Shown here: piece after piece, positions 16,153 to 34,509 of the stretch
How positions within the stretch are numbered: position 1 is the stretch's first letter
Layout of the letters: each line of letters opens with the position of its first letter
Assembly: GCF_000004075.3 (NCBI RefSeq)
Contig: NC_026661.2
Location: 2,976,001-3,040,000 of the forward strand
From: Cucumis sativus
Taxonomy: Eukaryota > Streptophyta > Magnoliopsida > Cucurbitales > Cucurbitaceae
Reading direction: 5' to 3'
Length of the DNA: 64,000 nt
The notes under the pieces: model-generated
Told to the model about the DNA's origin: nothing
Database searches by the model: none
What the model saw: the letters and a program-made list of their open reading frames with translations, nothing else
Position numbers and translations under genes: made by a program

Positions 16153-16389
16153 ATGGCTGGTGAGCAACAACAGTATACGACTAACTTCAATTCTAATTCC
16201 TCCATCAAAACTAACTTCTCTATTTATCCTAATCATACTTCTAGTAAGTCTTCTTCTTCTTCTTCCAAGTATCCCACCAAATTTTCTCACAATGGCTCCG
16301 TCTCTCAGGGTGAGAAAGACAAGATAAAAAAGGCTGAAGAGTCTCTTCGAACCGTCATGTATTTGAGTTGTTGGGGCCCTAATTCATGA
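16153..16389 (+). CDS. DUF3774 wound-induced small protein, divergent member (WIP-like 1)
   Basis: Intronless, 78 aa, ATG at 16153, stop TGA. A TATA box (CTATAAAT, 16033-16040) lies 113 bp before the start. Only the last 18 residues carry the family signature AEESLRTVMYLSCWGPNS. The first 60 residues are Ser/Asn/Lys-rich and lack the VGVVEALKDQG block of the neighbours, so this is the most divergent of the seven in its N-terminal half. No signal peptide or membrane segment is visible. I see none of the AAACCAGGGG-type boxes found before the next genes. In Arabidopsis the family (Pfam PF12609) has wound- and hypoxia-induced members; the molecular role is poorly known. It is the first gene of the array and lies alone, 3.6 kb before the next. 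Confidence 0.85.
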   Translation: MAGEQQQYTTNFNSNSSIKTNFSIYPNHTSSKSSSSSSKYPTKFSHNGSVSQGEKDKIKKAEESLRTVMYLSCWGPNS

Positions 16390-18057: not shown

Positions 18058-19593
18058 AAAATTAAAGGATTTTTTTTAAAAATAATGTAAAATTTGAAAC
18101 ATATTTCAAAAATAGGGTAGATGCAAAACTATTTTCAAAAATAGGTGTTTTGAGGTGAAGTCGTGGACGGGGTACACGACTTCCATGCAGTGGACCCCAC
18201 ATACTCTATTTTTTCCTTATTTTTATATTTATACTACACTGGGCCCCACATTTTTTAATTTTCTCATTATTTATATACGTGGGTCCCACACACTTCACTT
18301 TTTCTCATTATTTATATATACATACTCACATATAATATAATATATATATTATACATTTAAATTCTAAAAATATCTTTCTTTATTAAATTAATTTATTTTT
18401 TTTATTTTTTTCTTTATATATATTTAAATATCACAATCTTCAATCTTCAATTTTTCTTATTAAATTCATTTTTCTAATTTAATTTAATTCTTTCTTAATC
18501 AAAATTATACATATATTTTTTTTCCAATTTTCAATTTTTTTAAAAAAATCTCATATATTAACAAAACATGTTATTAAAAATATATTAAACAAATTAAAAG
18601 AGTAATAATAATAATTGAGATAAGTTAAAATTACTAAAAAAAATAATAATAATAACACTTGAAGCCACACACATTGATAATTGAATAAAAAGAAATTCAT
18701 GTTTATGGTAAAAGGAAAAAAACAAGAATTGGTTCGATTACAAATTAAATTTAAAAACTTAATGGATAATTTTGAATTGCAAATTTATTGTTATTATTAT
18801 TTTTAGAGTACGTTTCAACTTCTTTCAATTACTATTATTATTTTTATTTGTTTAATGTATTTTTTAATAACATATTTGGTTAATATATGTGTTTTTTTAA
18901 ACAGAAAATTAGAAAAAGATATATATAATTTTGGTTAAGAAATAATTAAATTAAATTAGAAAAGATGAATTAATAAGAAAATTTGAAGATTGAGATATTA
19001 AATAAATATATATATAATAATATATATAATAAATTATTATTATTATTACTCTTTTAATTTGTTTAATATATTTTTAATAACATGTTTTGTTAATATATGA
19101 GATTTTTTTTAAAAAAATTGAAAATTGGAAAAAAAATATATGTATAATTTTGATTAAGAAAGAATTAAATTAAATTAGAAAAATGAATTTAATAAGAAAA
19201 ATTGAAGATCGAAGATTGTGATATTTAAATATATATAAAGAAAAAAATAAAAAAATAAATTAATTTAATAAAGAAAGATATTTTTAGAATTTGAATGTAT
19301 AATATATATATATTATTATATGTGAGTATGTATATATAAATAATGAGAAAAAATGAAGTGTGTGGGACCCACGTATATAAATAATGAGAAAATTAAAAAA
19401 TGTGGGGCCCAGTGTAGTATAAATATAAAAATAAGGAAAAAATAGAGTATGTGGGGGCCACTACATGGAAGTCGTGTACCCCGTCCACGACTTCACCTCA
19501 AAACACCTATTTTTGAAAATAGTTTTGCATCTACCCTATTTTTGAAATATGTTTCAAATTTTACATTATTTTTAAAAAAAATCCAAAATTAAA
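18058..19593. mobile_element. Long-TIR fold-back element with 9-bp target duplication (Mutator-like, non-autonomous)
   Basis: The element runs 18067-19584 and begins GGATTTTTTTTAAAAATAAT; its end is the reverse complement. Left arm 18067-18616 and right arm about 19034-19584 are inverted repeats of about 550 bp. By eye I count about five substitutions and a few small indels, so about 99% identity. AAAATTAAA flanks it directly on both sides (18058-18066 and 19585-19593), a 9-bp target site duplication as made by Mutator-like elements. Near each end lies a small hairpin, GAAGTCGTG...CACGACTTC (18157-18183 and its mirror). The central spacer holds no coding frame. Part of it (about 18846-19010) is a diverged direct copy of the inner right arm. 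It is too short for a transposase, so it would need one in trans. Superfamily rests on TIR length and duplication size. Confidence 0.82.
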
Positions 19594-19896
19594 ATAACTG
19601 AAGTTATGAATTAAAAATATGATTGAACCCAAAAAAATATTTTAGAGATAAGATTAAAAAAAACGCGGAACGTGGCGAGCTGTTTTTAAGAATCCGTTGT
19701 TTTCCGTTTCCCACAATCCAGGGGGAGAGAAATCAAGGTGGTATTTCATTTCCAATGTCCAACTTTATCGGATATATATGCCCAATTGTTTTTAGCTACT
19801 CGAAACCCAATTATACCCCCCACACTTACAATCCCCAAACGCGGTATCAAGTGGCAATTATGTCTATTTACTATAAAAAGCAACCCAACAAAAGCA

Positions 19897-19907
19897 AAAC
19901 CAGGGGC
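19897..19907 (+). promoter_or_regulatory. HRPE-like box, second DUF3774 gene
   Basis: AAACCAGGGGC is an exact match to the hypoxia-responsive promoter element AAACCA(G/C)(G/C)(G/C)GC known as a group VII ERF target. It lies about 20 bp before the TATA box (GTATATAAA, about 19929-19937) and 129 bp before the start codon. Binding is inferred. Confidence 0.6.
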
Positions 19908-20035
19908 AGTTTGTTTGTTTTGTTGTGTGTATATAAAAAAAACCCCAACACCCCTAAAATTCAGTTCAACCAACAAAAATTGAAATCCAAGAAGCAAAGT
20001 ATTGAGAAATTTTTATAGTGAAAAGAAAAGGGATA

Positions 20036-20284
20036 ATGAGTTCATCAACAAGAGCTTTGGTTGTAGCAGCCACCGTCGGCGTCGTGGAAGCACTGAAGGA
20101 TCAAGGAATTTGCCGGTGGAATCATCTCTTAAGATCGGCGCACCACTACGCTAGAAACCATGTCCGGTCTATTTCTCAGGCTAAGAAGCTTTCATCCGCC
20201 GTGCCTTCCGCCAACCGCTTCCAACAGTCGGAGGAATCCCTGAGGACGGTCATGTATCTTAGTTGTTGGGGTCCTAATAACTGA
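20036..20284 (+). CDS. DUF3774 wound-induced small protein (WIP-like 2)
   Basis: Intronless, 82 aa. I chose the ATG at 20036 because the paralogues all start MSSS or MS there; the frame is open a few codons further up but without ATG. Residues 6-30 (RALVVAATVGVVEALKDQGI then CRWNH) form the shared N-terminal block, mildly hydrophobic then charged. Residues 31-64 are basic and Ser-rich (HHYARNHVRS). Residues 65-82 are the signature SEESLRTVMYLSCWGPNN. No signal peptide is evident. About 75 of 82 residues equal the next gene, so the two are a recent tandem pair. The fold-back element ends about 450 bp upstream. A TATA box is at 19929-19937. Expected behaviour, from the family, is induction by wounding or low oxygen; biochemical function is unknown. 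Confidence 0.93.
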   Translation: MSSSTRALVVAATVGVVEALKDQGICRWNHLLRSAHHYARNHVRSISQAKKLSSAVPSANRFQQSEESLRTVMYLSCWGPNN

Positions 20285-21240
20285 GCTGAACTGAAAACCC
20301 GTCCGTAAATTACTCCGGTATGGACCGGCGCTGGTTCAGTTTTTGGATCATGATTGTAATCAATTGTAGACAGTTTAGCGGCCTTTTTTTTTTATTCTTT
20401 TTTTTTTGGAAGGATTGTAAAAGCAATTCACTTCTTGATTATTTAATAGAATTGACATAAAGAAAGGCTTCTTCAGCACTTCAATTTCCGTTGCACGTTA
20501 ATTATTATTTTTGATTAAGTGGGATCATTTTTTGTTATAATTAAACTCTATATCAACCTCTATGTATTGTAAAAGAAAACATGAACATAACATAAAGTAA
20601 ACTCCTAATTTTATCAGATTATACTCTAATTTGTTATTTGCCATTTTAATCCATGTTCAATTTTGCCTAATTTGTTCATTCAGACTTATTATTAATTTCA
20701 ATTAAATAAAGCTATGCTTAAAGTAAGTTGGATCACTTTACCAATTAACCATTGGAAAAAGAATCTAAGGCACTTAATATCATTAAGAAGGAATAGCTCT
20801 AGGATTGTGTTCCATTTATCTGAATGCATATATAATAGTTCATATAAATCTTCTTAAAGAAAAGAAGCAATGCATACAAATAAATATCCCACAAAACTTG
20901 GGATTAACAAGAAAAATTAAAGCAGATTAATGTCAAAGTTATGTTTCTATTTGGTTTAATGTGAATCAAAGGTTAATAATAATCATAAGAAGAAGAAAGG
21001 TGGGATCTGGTGAGTGCAATCCACTAGCCACTAGTTTGCGCTAGAAATTCCAAGGTTGTATGAGACACGTGGAAATGAAAATGTTAAACCGTGTGCTATC
21101 AAATTTCAGAATCTTACTTGAAATCCCAATCCTATCCTCTTCACATCCGTCTCCAAAAGTCGGTTTCAAGGGATATTTATGTCCATTTACAAGAAAACAA
21201 TATATCATGGGTTGGATCCCACCGGGAAATAAACAAACAT
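20285..21240. other. Spacer between DUF3774 genes 2 and 3
   Basis: 3' flank of gene 2 and upstream flank of gene 3. The first 60 bp after each stop are alike in the two genes (ACTCCGGT...GGAC/TGGCG), showing that the duplication included the 3' untranslated region. CACGTG is at 21066-21071. No further gene. Confidence 0.5.
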
Positions 21241-21244
21241 ACCA

Positions 21245-21255
21245 AAACCGGAGGC
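21245..21255 (+). promoter_or_regulatory. Degenerate HRPE-like box, third DUF3774 gene
   Basis: AAACCGGAGGC sits at the place where gene 2 has its exact element, about 40 bp before the TATA box (TGTATAAAAA, 21287-21296). It differs from the consensus at two positions, so it is either weakened or not used. Confidence 0.3.
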
Positions 21256-21389
21256 TTTCTATTCCAAAGGCTGCGACCAGGCCTATGTATAAAAACCACC
21301 TCCACTATCCCACACTTCACAATCAAATTTCACCAACAAATTAAAATTGAAATTCAAAAGCGATTATTGTAGAGTGAAGAAAAAATCAA

Positions 21390-21638
21390 ATGAGTTCATC
21401 AACAAGAGCGTTGTTTGTAGCGGCCACCGTCGGCGTTGTGGAGGCACTTAAGGATCAAGGAATTTGCCGGTGGAATCATATCTTAAGATCGGCACATCAC
21501 TACGCCAGAAACCATGTTGGGTCTCTTTCTCAGGCTAAGAAGTTCTCCTCCGCCGTGTCTTCCGCCAACCGCCTCCAACAGTCGGAGGAATCTCTCAGAA
21601 CAGTTATGTATCTTAGCTGTTGGGGTCCTAATAACTGA
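21390..21638 (+). CDS. DUF3774 wound-induced small protein (WIP-like 3)
   Basis: Intronless, 82 aa, ATG at 21390, stop TGA. It is the near-copy of gene 2 (about 91% identical by eye). The seven changes are mostly conservative (V9F, L31I, I46L, L52F, F62L) plus R44G and P57S. The N-terminal block VGVVEALKDQGICRWN and the tail SEESLRTVMYLSCWGPNN are unchanged. A TATA box at 21287-21296 lies about 95 bp before the start. A frame-shifted open frame at 21514-21714 is only a shadow. The promoter has a CACGTG box but only a degenerate hypoxia box, so its expression could differ from gene 2. Confidence 0.93.
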   Translation: MSSSTRALFVAATVGVVEALKDQGICRWNHILRSAHHYARNHVGSLSQAKKFSSAVSSANRLQQSEESLRTVMYLSCWGPNN

Positions 21639-23545
21639 AATCATCCCACCAGATCATACTCCGGTTGGACTGGCGGCGGTTCGGGTCAAAAAAGATATTG
21701 CTGTCCGGTTTTGAAGCACTTGAGCTCACTTTATCTTCCTCCCTTCTTCATCAGTTTGTAATTGTAATTAAATGTTTAATGGAGGATTTGGGAGAGTCTG
21801 ATTCTTTCAACAATTGTAAACCCAATATTTCCCTTCTTAATAATAGCGGATTATTGATCGATTATTGAAGGAAAAAATGGACTTCAACTTAGGTTGGGTG
21901 ACTATTTAACTACTGAATTAGTAACTGATAATAGAGCATCAAGTTGAGGTTCAACCTCTGACCAATACTAAATCGTTGATGCTTGAATCTATTAATTTTT
22001 CAATTGGACTAAAGTAATTAGTAATTAGAGAGCATCCCTTTCATCATCCATCTACGATGATCACACCCTGCACAATATTTTGGTAAATATTTGATTTTAG
22101 ATTTTAGTAAATGTTTTGAGTGTAAAAATTTAAGTCTGCCAATAAGCTAGCTAAGAGAAAATGTTATGTTATTTACTTATTAGTTAACATTTAACACATA
22201 CAAATCTATAAAAGATGAAATTTCATCTGGATCATGTTGAAAATCACTCTATAATTTTCATTTTAATTGATTAATCAATCTAACACATACCAATATTAAT
22301 TTAATATTTGTTTACACAATAATACTTTAGCAGTAAAAGATGAATATATATAGAAAAAAGTGGAAAATTCCTAAGCTTTCTTTCCTATTAAAAAGAAAAA
22401 AGGATACATGTTTTCAAACAATTGTTACACTTGGATTTATTCTTCACCTTGGTTAATTCACTCAATATATGAATATATTCGTATATGGTCAGTTTGTGAA
22501 CTAAAATTTTATAGAGAAATTGTTTCAAATATATAAAATTGACAATTGTGTTGACTCGCAAATTTTGTTTTGTTCAGTTTTGACTTGTTTTGGTTTGCAT
22601 GGCAAAAAGAATTTGTAATTGGACTTTTACTCTCGTATTTGGACATTTTTGTGGTGCATGATTTGCTTCTAAAATATTGAGAGAAAGAAGATATGACTGA
22701 GCAAGAATGAATAAAATAGCTTCGCGATTAAAACAATTATATATACACAGAACCAAAAGCGTGTTGTTTCTCTCGTATCTAACATCGTCTAGTGTTGAGT
22801 CTTTGATATCTAGAGCAGTTCAAGCTTCTTTAGTATGATGAATTAAAGAACTATCATGTACATCTTGATAAAGGACATGATTTAGGGGAAGGTCCTCTAA
22901 TTTATTTCCTTAATCTATTGGTTGATGAGAAACATGATTATTAAAGGAGAGGTTTTGATTAACAAAATCTATCTTTGAAATAGTTGTAATAGAGTTATTG
23001 ACTGTAATACTCTATCACTGTCAGTACTAGTAAAAAAGTAAATGTAAATTTTTGTACTAAAAATAATCGTAATAGTTTGATTATAATTTATAAATGTCAA
23101 AGAAATAAAATTTGTAATTTCATGTCAATAAACTTTCACCATAGTTATTGCATCATCGAAATAGGTTATCGAAATAGGTTAACGATGTCGTCCATTTCTA
23201 TTATTCTGATTTAATGAGTGTTTCTATTCTCAAATATTTACTATGGTTGTTTTTATCAAAAAGTGTATATATATATATTTATAAATATAAATATTTTTAT
23301 ACATAAAAAAAGCTATAAATGACATAATATAAATAAATTAATTGAAGAAGGAAGTTGTGAATTAACAACGTTACTCCTTTTGTACAATGTTCACCCATTT
23401 TTCACAAAGAGCGGCAGAATTTAGTCACTCTCGAGTCCAACGCCTCCGGTTTAGAAAAAGGCGGTTTGAATCTCCTAATTCCCCTCCCCTAAAACCCGCC
23501 TTCCATAAAATTAAAAGCCCAACTCTACCCTCTCACTCCACTAAA
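21639..23545. other. Spacer between DUF3774 genes 3 and 4
   Basis: AT-rich, without a supported gene. The last 200 bp (23400-23600) are GC-richer and C-biased, as is common just upstream of these genes. Confidence 0.5.
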
Positions 23546-23631
23546 AAACCACCGGTTTCGAGGGGCAATATCGTCAAGTAAAGAGAAACAATAAATCCAG
23601 CCCGTCCACCGAAATAAAAAAACCAGGGGGC
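23546..23631 (+). promoter_or_regulatory. Two HRPE-like boxes, fourth DUF3774 gene
   Basis: AAACCAGGGGGC (23620-23631) contains the element with one extra G. AAACCACCGGT (23546-23556) matches the consensus AAACCA(G/C)(G/C)(G/C)GC at 10 of 11 positions. The TATA box (ATATATAAAC) follows at about 23640. Two spaced boxes would suit cooperative ERF binding; this is inference. Confidence 0.5.
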
Positions 23632-23732
23632 AGTTTCCAAATATATAAACAGCTCAACCCCATTGCACAATCAAGTTCGAAGATCGCAAAACTTTGATAA
23701 TTGAAGGGGAAAAAAAAAAAGAAAAGAAAAGA

Positions 23733-23990
23733 ATGAGTTCATCAAGAAGAGCTTGGATTGTAGCCGCCAGTGTAGGCGTGGTGGAAGCATTAAAGGATCA
23801 AGGGATTTGCCGATGGAATCACACCATTAGATCGGCGCATCAATATGCTAAAAACCATGTCAGATCGGTGCCTCAGGCCACTAGATTGACTGGCTCCTCC
23901 GCCGCCGTGGTTTCCAGCAAGCAACAGCAGAAGCAATCGGAAGAATCTTTGAGAACTGTCATGTATTTGAGCTGTTGGGGTCCCAACTAA
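23733..23990 (+). CDS. DUF3774 wound-induced small protein (WIP-like 4)
   Basis: Intronless, 85 aa. The start at 23733 (MSSSRRAW) is the first ATG; the upstream codons of the frame are a purine-rich leader without ATG. It has the shared block AASVGVVEALKDQGICRWNH, then a basic middle (IRSAHQYAKNHVRSVPQ), a short Ser/Gln linker (SSKQQQKQ) and the invariant tail SEESLRTVMYLSCWGPN. It is closest to gene 5 in the N-terminal half (both read NHTIRS and YAKNHVRS). No organelle or secretion signal is clear. The 3' flank (24000-24110) is unusually GC-rich with GCCGCCGCC and GGCGAGG words, unlike the other members. Confidence 0.93.
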   Translation: MSSSRRAWIVAASVGVVEALKDQGICRWNHTIRSAHQYAKNHVRSVPQATRLTGSSAAVVSSKQQQKQSEESLRTVMYLSCWGPN

Positions 23991-25743
23991 AGTCCCCTTT
24001 TGTTCAAGATTTAGAGTCTGATGCTAAAATCAGCCGCCGCCAGAGAGGATCTCGGCGAGGCTTTATAATTCCCTCTTGAACCACAGTGGGGTTGGGCGAA
24101 AAAAATCGCCGGTAGGGAGTTTGGTACTGTAGCGATTGTATATGAATTGGGTATTTGGTGTCAATGGAAATCATACAAATTACAATTACTGGACTTGTTA
24201 TCGCTCCTTTTTATTTTCTTGCACAATAGTTTTGATTTTCCACGAAACGACTGAGTGAGAGAGAGACCAATCAATGGCACATGTGGACAATCAATTTTAA
24301 TTGTTATTTTGTTGTTCTTAACGAGATTTGGGAGTTGGAGAAAAAATTCTGATTTCTTGGCCAAAGAGGTTGATGAGAGAATTATATAAAATATCAAAAA
24401 TTTAGTGTGAACAATTTAGAGACTAAATTTTGATAAGGGTCGATATTTTATTTAATTTTTCATGTTCCAAAACGAATGGGTGATTGTATCTTTTATGCTC
24501 TGGAACATCAGGATAGCGAGGACTTTCAATCAACCAAATTTCAAATGAATTTTGTTCTTTCTTATAACAAGAAAGATAATGGTTTTAAATCCAAATAATT
24601 TCTAATCACGTATTTGTATATACACTTCATTGGCCAAAATAGTCAGATTTCATATAATTTCAAAGTTAATTACATAATTGATCTTAACTTAAGACATTAG
24701 TATTAAATGTTTAGATTAAACACGAACTCCACCTTCAACTAAATTTACTAGCAAAACAACCATGAGTCAATATTTTCACAATTTAAATTTATAGAAGAAA
24801 AAAGGAACAATTGTAAAAGCATCTAATTATTTTGTTTGGATAAGTCAACAATAAAGTAATTAACTAATTCCACATATTGAAACTATTAGAGACTAGTCAA
24901 GCAATAATACACCTGTGACATTGATGCAGAGTAACCAAGACTGAGTGTAATAACTCATAAGATGCAGTCTAGACTAATTTATCACTTGTGCTTCCTACTT
25001 TTCTACTCCACAAAAATATTATAAAAAAAAATATTTTTACCTTACTTAATTCATTACACTTTGAATAATTTTATCATAAAAAAGAGCAAAGTCATTATCT
25101 TGAAGTTTTTAGGCATATCAATCGAGTTAATAAATATGACAACTGAGTAACTCTCAATTTGACACTCTACAACTCCAAGCACTAGGAACCATGATGATAA
25201 CTTCAGTGTTACGTGTAACTAAAGGCAAGTGTTAGAGGAATGACTCATAATCAAAGGAAGTAAGTAATCTCTAATAAAAAGAATTTTAGTATTTAGCTAA
25301 ATTATACATATATTAACTTAGGCATTGAAATGGGGAAGATTATTCAATACCACATGGTGAAAGAATCTTTTGAAATTTCTATTAAATATAAAATTGGAAG
25401 TTAAAAATGTCTATCTTAAGAAAAAATTGGAAACTATGAGTACACAAACTATATGAACAGTGTAATGGAAACACCATGAGTCATATCCGATGCTATCTCA
25501 ACATTGACACGCACTACAAAGTGAAGTAGCAATCTGATCTCTATGAGTAAAAAAAACTAAAAACAAATAAACAAACAGTATGGTATAACGTGATAGTAAA
25601 GTAAAGTAGAGTCCATCCATCCAGATACAGTGGATGTATGATAAAAAAAACAAAAACAGTATAAAGTTATGAATCCAATTCCAAGGAGGAAATTTGTCAC
25701 TTGCAGTGGTTTTTCAAACCCCAAACTCTACCCCTCCACTCTC
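23991..25743. other. Spacer between DUF3774 genes 4 and 5
   Basis: AT-rich, no supported gene. The minus-strand frame 24161-24397 is not protein-like. CACGTG at 25744-25749 begins the promoter of gene 5. Confidence 0.5.
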
Positions 25744-25779
25744 CACGTGTTTCTGAAAAACAAAACAAAACCAGGGGGC
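25744..25779 (+). promoter_or_regulatory. G-box and HRPE-like box, fifth DUF3774 gene
   Basis: CACGTG lies at 25744-25749 and AAACCAGGGGGC at 25768-25779, the latter the same 12-mer as before gene 4. The TATA box (CTATATATAA) is near 25819-25828, 76 bp before the start codon. Confidence 0.5.
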
Positions 25780-28186: not shown

Positions 28187-28474
28187 ATGTGTGCTGGAAA
28201 AAGTTGGACTACAGCGGCGGCGGCGAGTATAGGGGCGGTGGAGGCGTTGAAAGATCAAGGGCATTTATGGAGGTTGAATAATAAGTATGGTGTGAGAGCA
28301 ATTTCGTCTCATCACAACAAGCTTTCTTCTTCTTCTTCTTCTTCTTCGAAGTCTTCAGCTTCTGTAATCGCGGATTCTAGTGAAGTTAAAAGGGAATTAG
28401 ATCATAGTAAGCCCAAACAGTCTGAAGAATCTCTTAGAACTGTTATGTACTTGAGTTGTTGGGGTCCTTACTGA
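28187..28474 (+). CDS. DUF3774 wound-induced small protein (WIP-like 6)
   Basis: Intronless, 95 aa, the longest member, ATG at 28187. The N-terminal block is present but changed: SIGAVEALKDQGHLWRLNN in place of SVGVVEALKDQGICRWNH. A pure Ser run (eight Ser, residues 47-54, coded by TCT/TTC repeats) and an acidic-basic linker (SSEVKRELDHSKPK) make it longer. The tail is QSEESLRTVMYLSCWGPY, ending in Tyr instead of Asn. TATA box CTATAAATA is at 28120-28128, followed by AAACCACCCTC at 28131-28141, one base off the hypoxia element but downstream of the TATA and so probably in the leader. The triplet Ser run may vary in length between lines. Confidence 0.92.
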   Translation: MCAGKSWTTAAAASIGAVEALKDQGHLWRLNNKYGVRAISSHHNKLSSSSSSSSKSSASVIADSSEVKRELDHSKPKQSEESLRTVMYLSCWGPY

Positions 28475-34040: not shown

Positions 34041-34230
34041 GTGGAACCGGCGGCTATGTTAATCAAGTATGTTTCCGGTTTAGAGATTGAACCCAACCGG
34101 CTCTGTCTATAAATAAGATGGGGGGTTTCTATGTTTTTTCAATCAACGCAATAACGGTGAACGAGTTGTGTGAGTGAGTTAACTCAGTTTATCTTAAAAA
34201 GAACTTTGTGTTAAGTGTTTGAGGTTGAAG

Positions 34231-34509
34231 ATGAGTTACCTGAACAGAGTTGGAATGGCGGCCAGTGTGGCTGTGGCTCAAGGCCATACCGAGATCGGAC
34301 ACAAGTGGAAGTCTGGACTTAAATCTCTTCGACAAGGTCGGAGACTTTTGTCTTCCGGCGAAAATTCGGCGGATCTCCGTCCACTGTCCAGTTTGGTTGG
34401 ATCGGAAGGCTCTGGAAGTGTGCGGAGCTGTGACGTTGACGAGAGGATAGCACAATCGGAGGATTCTCTCCGGAGAGTTATGTACTTGAACTGTTGGGGC
34501 CAAGGGTGA
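34231..34509 (+). CDS. DUF3774 family small protein, divergent member (WIP-like 7)
   Basis: Intronless, 92 aa. The start is the ATG at 34231 (MSYLNRVG); earlier in-frame codons have no ATG. The N-terminal block has drifted to GMAASVAVAQGHTEIGHKWK, and the middle is basic then Ser/Gly-rich with an acidic patch (CDVDERIA). The tail is SEDSLRRVMYLNCWGQG: same length and pattern as the signature but with E to D, T to R, S to N and P to Q changes. This is an older branch of the family than genes 2-5, not a fresh duplicate. TATA box CTATAAATA is at about 34107-34115. A degenerate GAACCGGCGGC is at about 34044-34054. Coding GC is higher than the surroundings. Confidence 0.9.
   Translation: MSYLNRVGMAASVAVAQGHTEIGHKWKSGLKSLRQGRRLLSSGENSADLRPLSSLVGSEGSGSVRSCDVDERIAQSEDSLRRVMYLNCWGQG

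Follow-up and report, generated by a model that had tools for sequence, protein, structure and literature searches.

Boxes resembling the hypoxia-responsive promoter element point to group VII ERF control of a cucumber DUF3774 gene array

In air, PCO enzymes oxidise the group VII ERFs (ERF-VIIs) that bear the MCGGAII N-degron, which leads to their destruction. The source study of the hypoxia-responsive promoter element (HRPE) is said to be that of Gasch et al. 2016. Here we describe HRPE-like boxes in cucumber upstream of DUF3774 genes (PF12609, wound-induced protein), seven of which, all on the plus strand and spanning ~18 kb, lie within a 64-kb window (bases 2,976,001-3,040,000 of contig C7, from a genome of 226,625,048 bases in 88 contigs). 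The Arabidopsis genes AT4G10270 (WIP4) and AT4G10265, which we take to be DUF3774 genes, are the relatives with which the array is compared. Both are reported as commonly raised by hypoxia in a meta-analysis of Arabidopsis and rice (PMC9317734), and WIP4 comes second in order of significance in pennycress roots under waterlogging, in both lines (PMC11688638). A wound-responsive family protein cluster is described as waterlogging-induced in both lines of zombi pea (PMC6724125), and an oil palm WIP4 gene as an inferred target of hypoxia-related factors (PMC10448820). AT4G33560 and AT4G10270 are among the examples given as changed in low-pressure roots, the former also being reported to differ between low pressure with and without added oxygen (PMC5385376), and both appear in the accession list of an N-degron/hypoxia study, a listing that by itself shows no response (PMC11371152). 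Higher HRPE density is reported to accompany a faster response in Arabidopsis (PMC12994171). The literature searched yielded no paper joining DUF3774 with hypoxia, nor one joining 'hypoxia-responsive promoter element' with 'wound-responsive family protein'.

The HRPE consensus is given as GCCVCYGGTTTY (PMC10400637, PMC11660084), which reads RAAACCRGBGGC on the gene strand; this pattern was adopted after the sequence had been seen, its form being fixed by those two papers. Scanning of the window at ≤1 mismatch revealed six sites (19896, exact; 21244; 23548, minus strand; 23619; 25767; 34043), all of them within 250 bp upstream of a DUF3774 ATG. Five of the seven genes have such a site, exact at gene 2 and with one mismatch at genes 3, 4, 5 and 7, and the main boxes of genes 2-5 lie at -114 to -146 on the gene strand. 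The gene 6 promoter has no RAAACCRGBGGC site at ≤1 mismatch, its only related word being AAACCACCCTC, 66 bp before the ATG and one mismatch from AAACCASSSGC.

An earlier note on this DNA had described an exact AAACCA(G/C)(G/C)(G/C)GC box before gene 2, one box word before both gene 4 and gene 5, a second one-mismatch box before gene 4, a degenerate form before gene 3 and a gene 1 promoter lacking the box. Each of these was found again: AAACCAGGGGC at 19897-19907 on the plus strand, the sole exact AAACCASSSGC match in the window; AAACCAGGGGGC at 23620-23631 and 25768-25779, both on the plus (gene) strand and clarified here as a 13-base form; AAACCACCGGT at 23546; AAACCGGAGGC beginning at 21245, 145 bp before the gene 3 ATG; and no box at ≤1 mismatch before gene 1. 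The second gene 4 box, AAACCACCGGTTTC, is one mismatch from AAACCASSSGC on the plus strand and one mismatch from RAAACCRGBGGC on the minus strand. The boxes also stand, as had been proposed, near the upstream side of a TATA-like word, with 22 bp from the end of the main box at gene 2, 32 at gene 3, 10 at gene 4 and 14 or 42 at gene 5, so that the nearest such word is 10-32 bp away. The DUF3774 identity given to the neighbouring genes holds for genes 1-7, all of which score 49-117 bits with the PF12609 profile against a curated cut-off of 27.3. The observation is real and stronger than had been stated, and the site before gene 7, which overlaps GCCGCC, is added to it.

Table 1 Positions of the DUF3774 genes and promoter boxes in the window
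Feature	Position	Strand	Remark
Gene 1, DUF3774	16153..16389	+	no box; internal contrast
Exact HRPE AAAACCAGGGGC	19896..19907	+	5' end 140 bp upstream of gene 2 ATG
Gene 2, DUF3774, 82 aa	20036..20284	+	
Degenerate HRPE AAAACCGGAGGC before gene 3	21244..21255	+	one mismatch to RAAACCRGBGGC
Gene 3, DUF3774, 82 aa	21390..21638	+	
Second gene 4 box AAACCACCGGTTTC, partly palindromic	23546..23559	.	begins 187 bp before ATG
13-base HRPE variant AAAACCAGGGGGC, one extra G, before gene 4	23619..23631	+	
Gene 4, DUF3774, 85 aa	23733..23990	+	
13-base HRPE variant AAAACCAGGGGGC, one extra G, before gene 5	25767..25779	+	
Gene 5, DUF3774, 85 aa	25904..26161	+	
Gene 6, DUF3774	28187..28474	+	
One-mismatch HRPE / GCC-box-like site GGAACCGGCGGC before gene 7	34043..34054	+	
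Gene 7, DUF3774	34231..34509	+	

The number of sites was compared with whole-genome rates and with shuffled sequence. Exact AAACCASSSGC was rejected as a genome-wide signal: it occurs 201 times against 215 for the reversed pattern, and because it is as common as this control, that consensus alone proves little. Together with the finding that 8 of 100 window shuffles reach one exact match, this lack of enrichment is what could be said for the boxes being chance matches to a degenerate consensus. RAAACCRGBGGC gave 152 exact sites genome-wide versus 106 for the reversed pattern, and 4235 versus 3326 at ≤1 mismatch. At the genome rate 0.033 sites are expected in 7 x 250 bp of promoter and six were seen (Poisson P(≥6) 1.7e-12 if independent), while dinucleotide shuffles of the seven 250-bp promoters gave a mean of 0.061 sites, with none of 3000 reaching six. 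In the 226.6 Mb of the genome AAACCAGGGGC occurs 25 times, once in the array, and AAACCAGGGGGC three times, two of these being the gene 4 and gene 5 boxes; only 1 of 100 window shuffles reaches two AAACCAGGGGGC matches at ≤1 mismatch. Faced with these counts, we regard chance as extremely improbable. The enrichment check that had been suggested thus came out strongly in favour, its reference being the whole-genome rate and shuffles in place of all annotated promoters.

Genes 2-5 are clear duplicates encoding proteins 72-91% identical, so shared promoter words are expected, and the boxes could be remnants of tandem duplication that now do nothing. An 84-bp promoter stretch is indeed still alignable between genes 2 and 3, the youngest pair (dS, synonymous divergence, 0.37). 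Genes 2, 4 and 5, on the other hand, are old duplicates, with dS of 1.36 (genes 2-4), 1.48 (2-5) and 0.84 (4-5), and blastn of their 1000-bp upstream regions aligned no more than 21-35 bases at a time, always away from the box. The longest word common to their 250-bp promoters is AAAACCAGGGG, a length matched in 1 of 1000 shuffles (2 of 1000 at 400 bp and 20 of 1000 at 1000 bp). The boxes moreover have the same strand and a similar spacing from ATG and TATA, and the word, GC-rich amid AT-rich flanks, is that of a known element. Leftovers without function are in our view very unlikely. Judged by these comparisons, the box has persisted in genes 2, 4 and 5 while most of the promoter around it diverged, so that the array very probably belongs to the known low-oxygen response. 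When gene 3 is added, the four-gene set has only AAAACCA in common, which shuffles match in 396 of 1000. By contrast, genes 1, 6 and 7 share the TATA word CTATAAATAA and not the box (0 of 1000 shuffles, 250 bp).

A genome search with PF07847 revealed four PCO loci. Exact HRPEs lie 338 bp upstream of the first-exon ATG of the PCO on C3 and 347 bp upstream of that on C4, each antisense to its gene; the PCOs on C1 and C6 have no HRPE at ≤1 mismatch in ~1.5 kb (C1, putative first exon) and ~1.8 kb (C6) upstream. In apple, an HRPE is reported within 1000 bp at five of five B-type PCOs and none of five A-type (PMC11660084). As that split predicts, the exact element is found at the two cucumber PCOs that are B-type-like and at neither of the two A-type-like, these labels being assigned from first-exon sequence by eye and from the C3-C4 match. 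The C4 first exon was assigned by blastp to the C3 first exon (E 2e-08 for the pair); Pfam gave nothing on the C4 first exon alone, nor on an ERF-VII N-terminus alone. The regulators are encoded too, since all five genome matches to MCGGAII(S/A)D have an AP2 domain ≤1.5 kb downstream; these genes are putative, and the count depends on a pattern that may miss others. An HRPE site is present in none of the five ERF-VII genes' own promoters. Two of the ERF-VII-like genes (L081, C6:15654678, and L082, C6:15805607) lie 151 kb apart on one contig with identical degron DNA and the same AP2 sequence over the stretch compared, and represent a recent duplication or an assembly copy.

Taken with the responses of related genes, the enrichment, the PCO promoters and the regulator genes make ERF-VII control of the array, which the earlier note had put forward, very likely at the level of sequence, where it is supported and not proved. 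In the proposed mechanism, ERF-VIIs would persist when oxygen falls and occupy the box that closely precedes the TATA-like word, thereby inducing the WIP4-like DUF3774 genes 2, 4 and 5. Gene 3 would probably be induced as well, more weakly, and gene 7 possibly, a ranking predicted from the forms of the boxes. That the boxes are HRPEs acting in this way we hold to be probable, with good confidence.

The promoters were also inspected for other inputs. The mitochondrial dysfunction motif (CTTGNNNNNCAMG) occurs in none of the seven 500-bp window DUF3774 promoters. A CACGTG G-box lies ≤500 bp upstream of genes 3 and 5, so the HRPE box is not the sole candidate input and other inputs are likely. The boxes might instead be functional mainly for another ERF, a wound, jasmonate or ethylene GCC-box binder, with the array answering wounding and not oxygen; these G-boxes would suit such a reading, as would the Pfam name, the GCCGCC overlap at gene 7 and the GCC-like core reported within the HRPE (PMC12646155). 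It fits less well that both halves of the HRPE, AAACC and the GC part, are kept, that the same kind of word occurs at the B-type-like PCO promoters, and that GCCGCC and TTGAC[CT] are absent from 500 bp upstream of genes 2-5. Jasmonate, in addition, is reported to lower HRPE reporter activity in Arabidopsis (PMC11707877). Control mainly by another ERF is accordingly rated as unlikely.

Several observations weigh against oxygen-dependent control of the array by ERF-VIIs. The Poisson and shuffle figures take the genes as independent, which is too generous for related tandem copies, and for this reason retention between duplicates was used as a second test. In that test the shared words are weak to moderate when taken pair by pair (136 of 1000 shuffles for genes 2-4, 30 for 2-5 and 13 for 4-5; 250 bp), and the intact box is not common to the youngest pair, gene 3 having only the one-mismatch AAAACCGGAGGC. 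The boxes of genes 4 and 5 have an extra base within the element, and with this G they are one mismatch off in either register and not exact HRPEs. No exact HRPE was found in 1.5 kb of promoter at six PDC-like genes (L070, L072-L076; called by eye among eight scanned of nine PF02776 places, L077 being left out) or at five LBD41-like genes (L053-L057; first exons 66-90% identical to an LBD41 query). The words 'wound' and 'WIP' were not found in the main text of two cucumber waterlogging papers (PMC11324642, PMC7912563).

Among the LBD41-like promoters, two have a one-mismatch HRPE, at -1462 and -186, and a third has a one-mismatch AAACCASSSGC match at -533; as a control, none of six other LOB-family genes (L063-L068) has an HRPE site. 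The globin family search of the genome gave no match, so phytoglobin provided no control.

The genome-wide family search gave 13 DUF3774 matches, the seven of the window included. Five of the six outside it are without a site, and in the sixth (L009) the minus strand carries two, each with one mismatch. Two DUF3774 genes on C6 (L012, C6:8549796, and L013, C6:8558901) stand 9 kb apart with frames differing by one residue; from this likeness they are a very recent duplicate pair, both without the box. In a protein tree that took in 12 of the 13 sequences, one of this near-identical pair being omitted, genes 2 and 3 were joined firmly, and genes 4 and 5 and the copy on C3 had no firm placement.

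Other occurrences of the box words were read in their surroundings. From 30 of 40 listed places with AAACCAGGGG[N]C, 3-kb loci were made and the four longest frames of each judged by eye, five loci being extended on one side. One of these listed loci is a PCO promoter, several sites lie in coding frames, for example of a receptor kinase, a GTPase and a germin-like protein, and one site has an expansin gene >1 kb downstream of it. The third genomic AAACCAGGGGGC (L029, C3:13967677) has AAACCAGGGGAC (L028, C3:13967184) 493 bp away on the same strand, and no recognisable gene was found beyond it in the 4.2 kb read. GAAACCGGCGGC accounts for 27 of the 100 exact HRPE-consensus sites listed (152 in all), many of them mid-contig on C1, C4 and C5; these sites are probably carried by a repeat family, copies of which would inflate genome-wide HRPE counts.

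Two further features of the array were observed. A near-perfect 1.5-kb foldback lies between genes 1 and 2 (18067-19584) and ends ~310 bp before the gene 2 box, with outer arms of 344 nt at 98% complementarity and 93-96% further inwards. It is probably a foldback-type mobile element and a possible source of small RNAs beside the gene 2 promoter. The gene 6 protein (28187-28474) starts Met-Cys (MCAGKSW) and so might present a Cys at its N-terminus, as substrates of PCO enzymes do.

As read from its sequence, the array adds a new, well-supported example to a known mode of regulation. Through a specific DNA element, a family of small proteins of which little is understood is linked, in a crop plant, to the known oxygen-sensing pathway. 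The neighbouring duplicates also form a natural series of HRPE forms, exact (gene 2), 13-base with an inserted G (genes 4 and 5), degenerate (gene 3) and absent (gene 1), which should be useful on the tolerance of ERF-VII recognition. Of interest here are a possible role of the inserted-base form as a functional subtype and of the series in grading the response. A tentative idea, which we think more doubtful than not, is that of a graded oxygen switchboard: the series would let similar small proteins respond at differing oxygen thresholds or to differing ERF-VIIs, with the 13-base form acting as a functional HRPE subtype of its own.

Compared with the known HRPE, the array is alike in its exact match at gene 2, its matches within one mismatch at genes 3, 4, 5 and 7, its promoter-proximal placement and the occurrence of the same element at two PCO genes; it differs in that genes 4 and 5 keep the 13-base form with one extra G, a putative ERF-VII site. 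It resembles Arabidopsis WIP4 (AT4G10270) and AT4G10265 in belonging to a group whose relatives answer low oxygen or waterlogging, whereas in cucumber seven DUF3774 genes are gathered in ~18 kb, five of them with a site. With B-type PCO promoters it has in common an exact HRPE in the upstream region, which in the cucumber B-type-like PCOs is placed at -338 and -347 on the opposite strand, unlike the boxes on the gene strand close to the ATG of genes 2-5.

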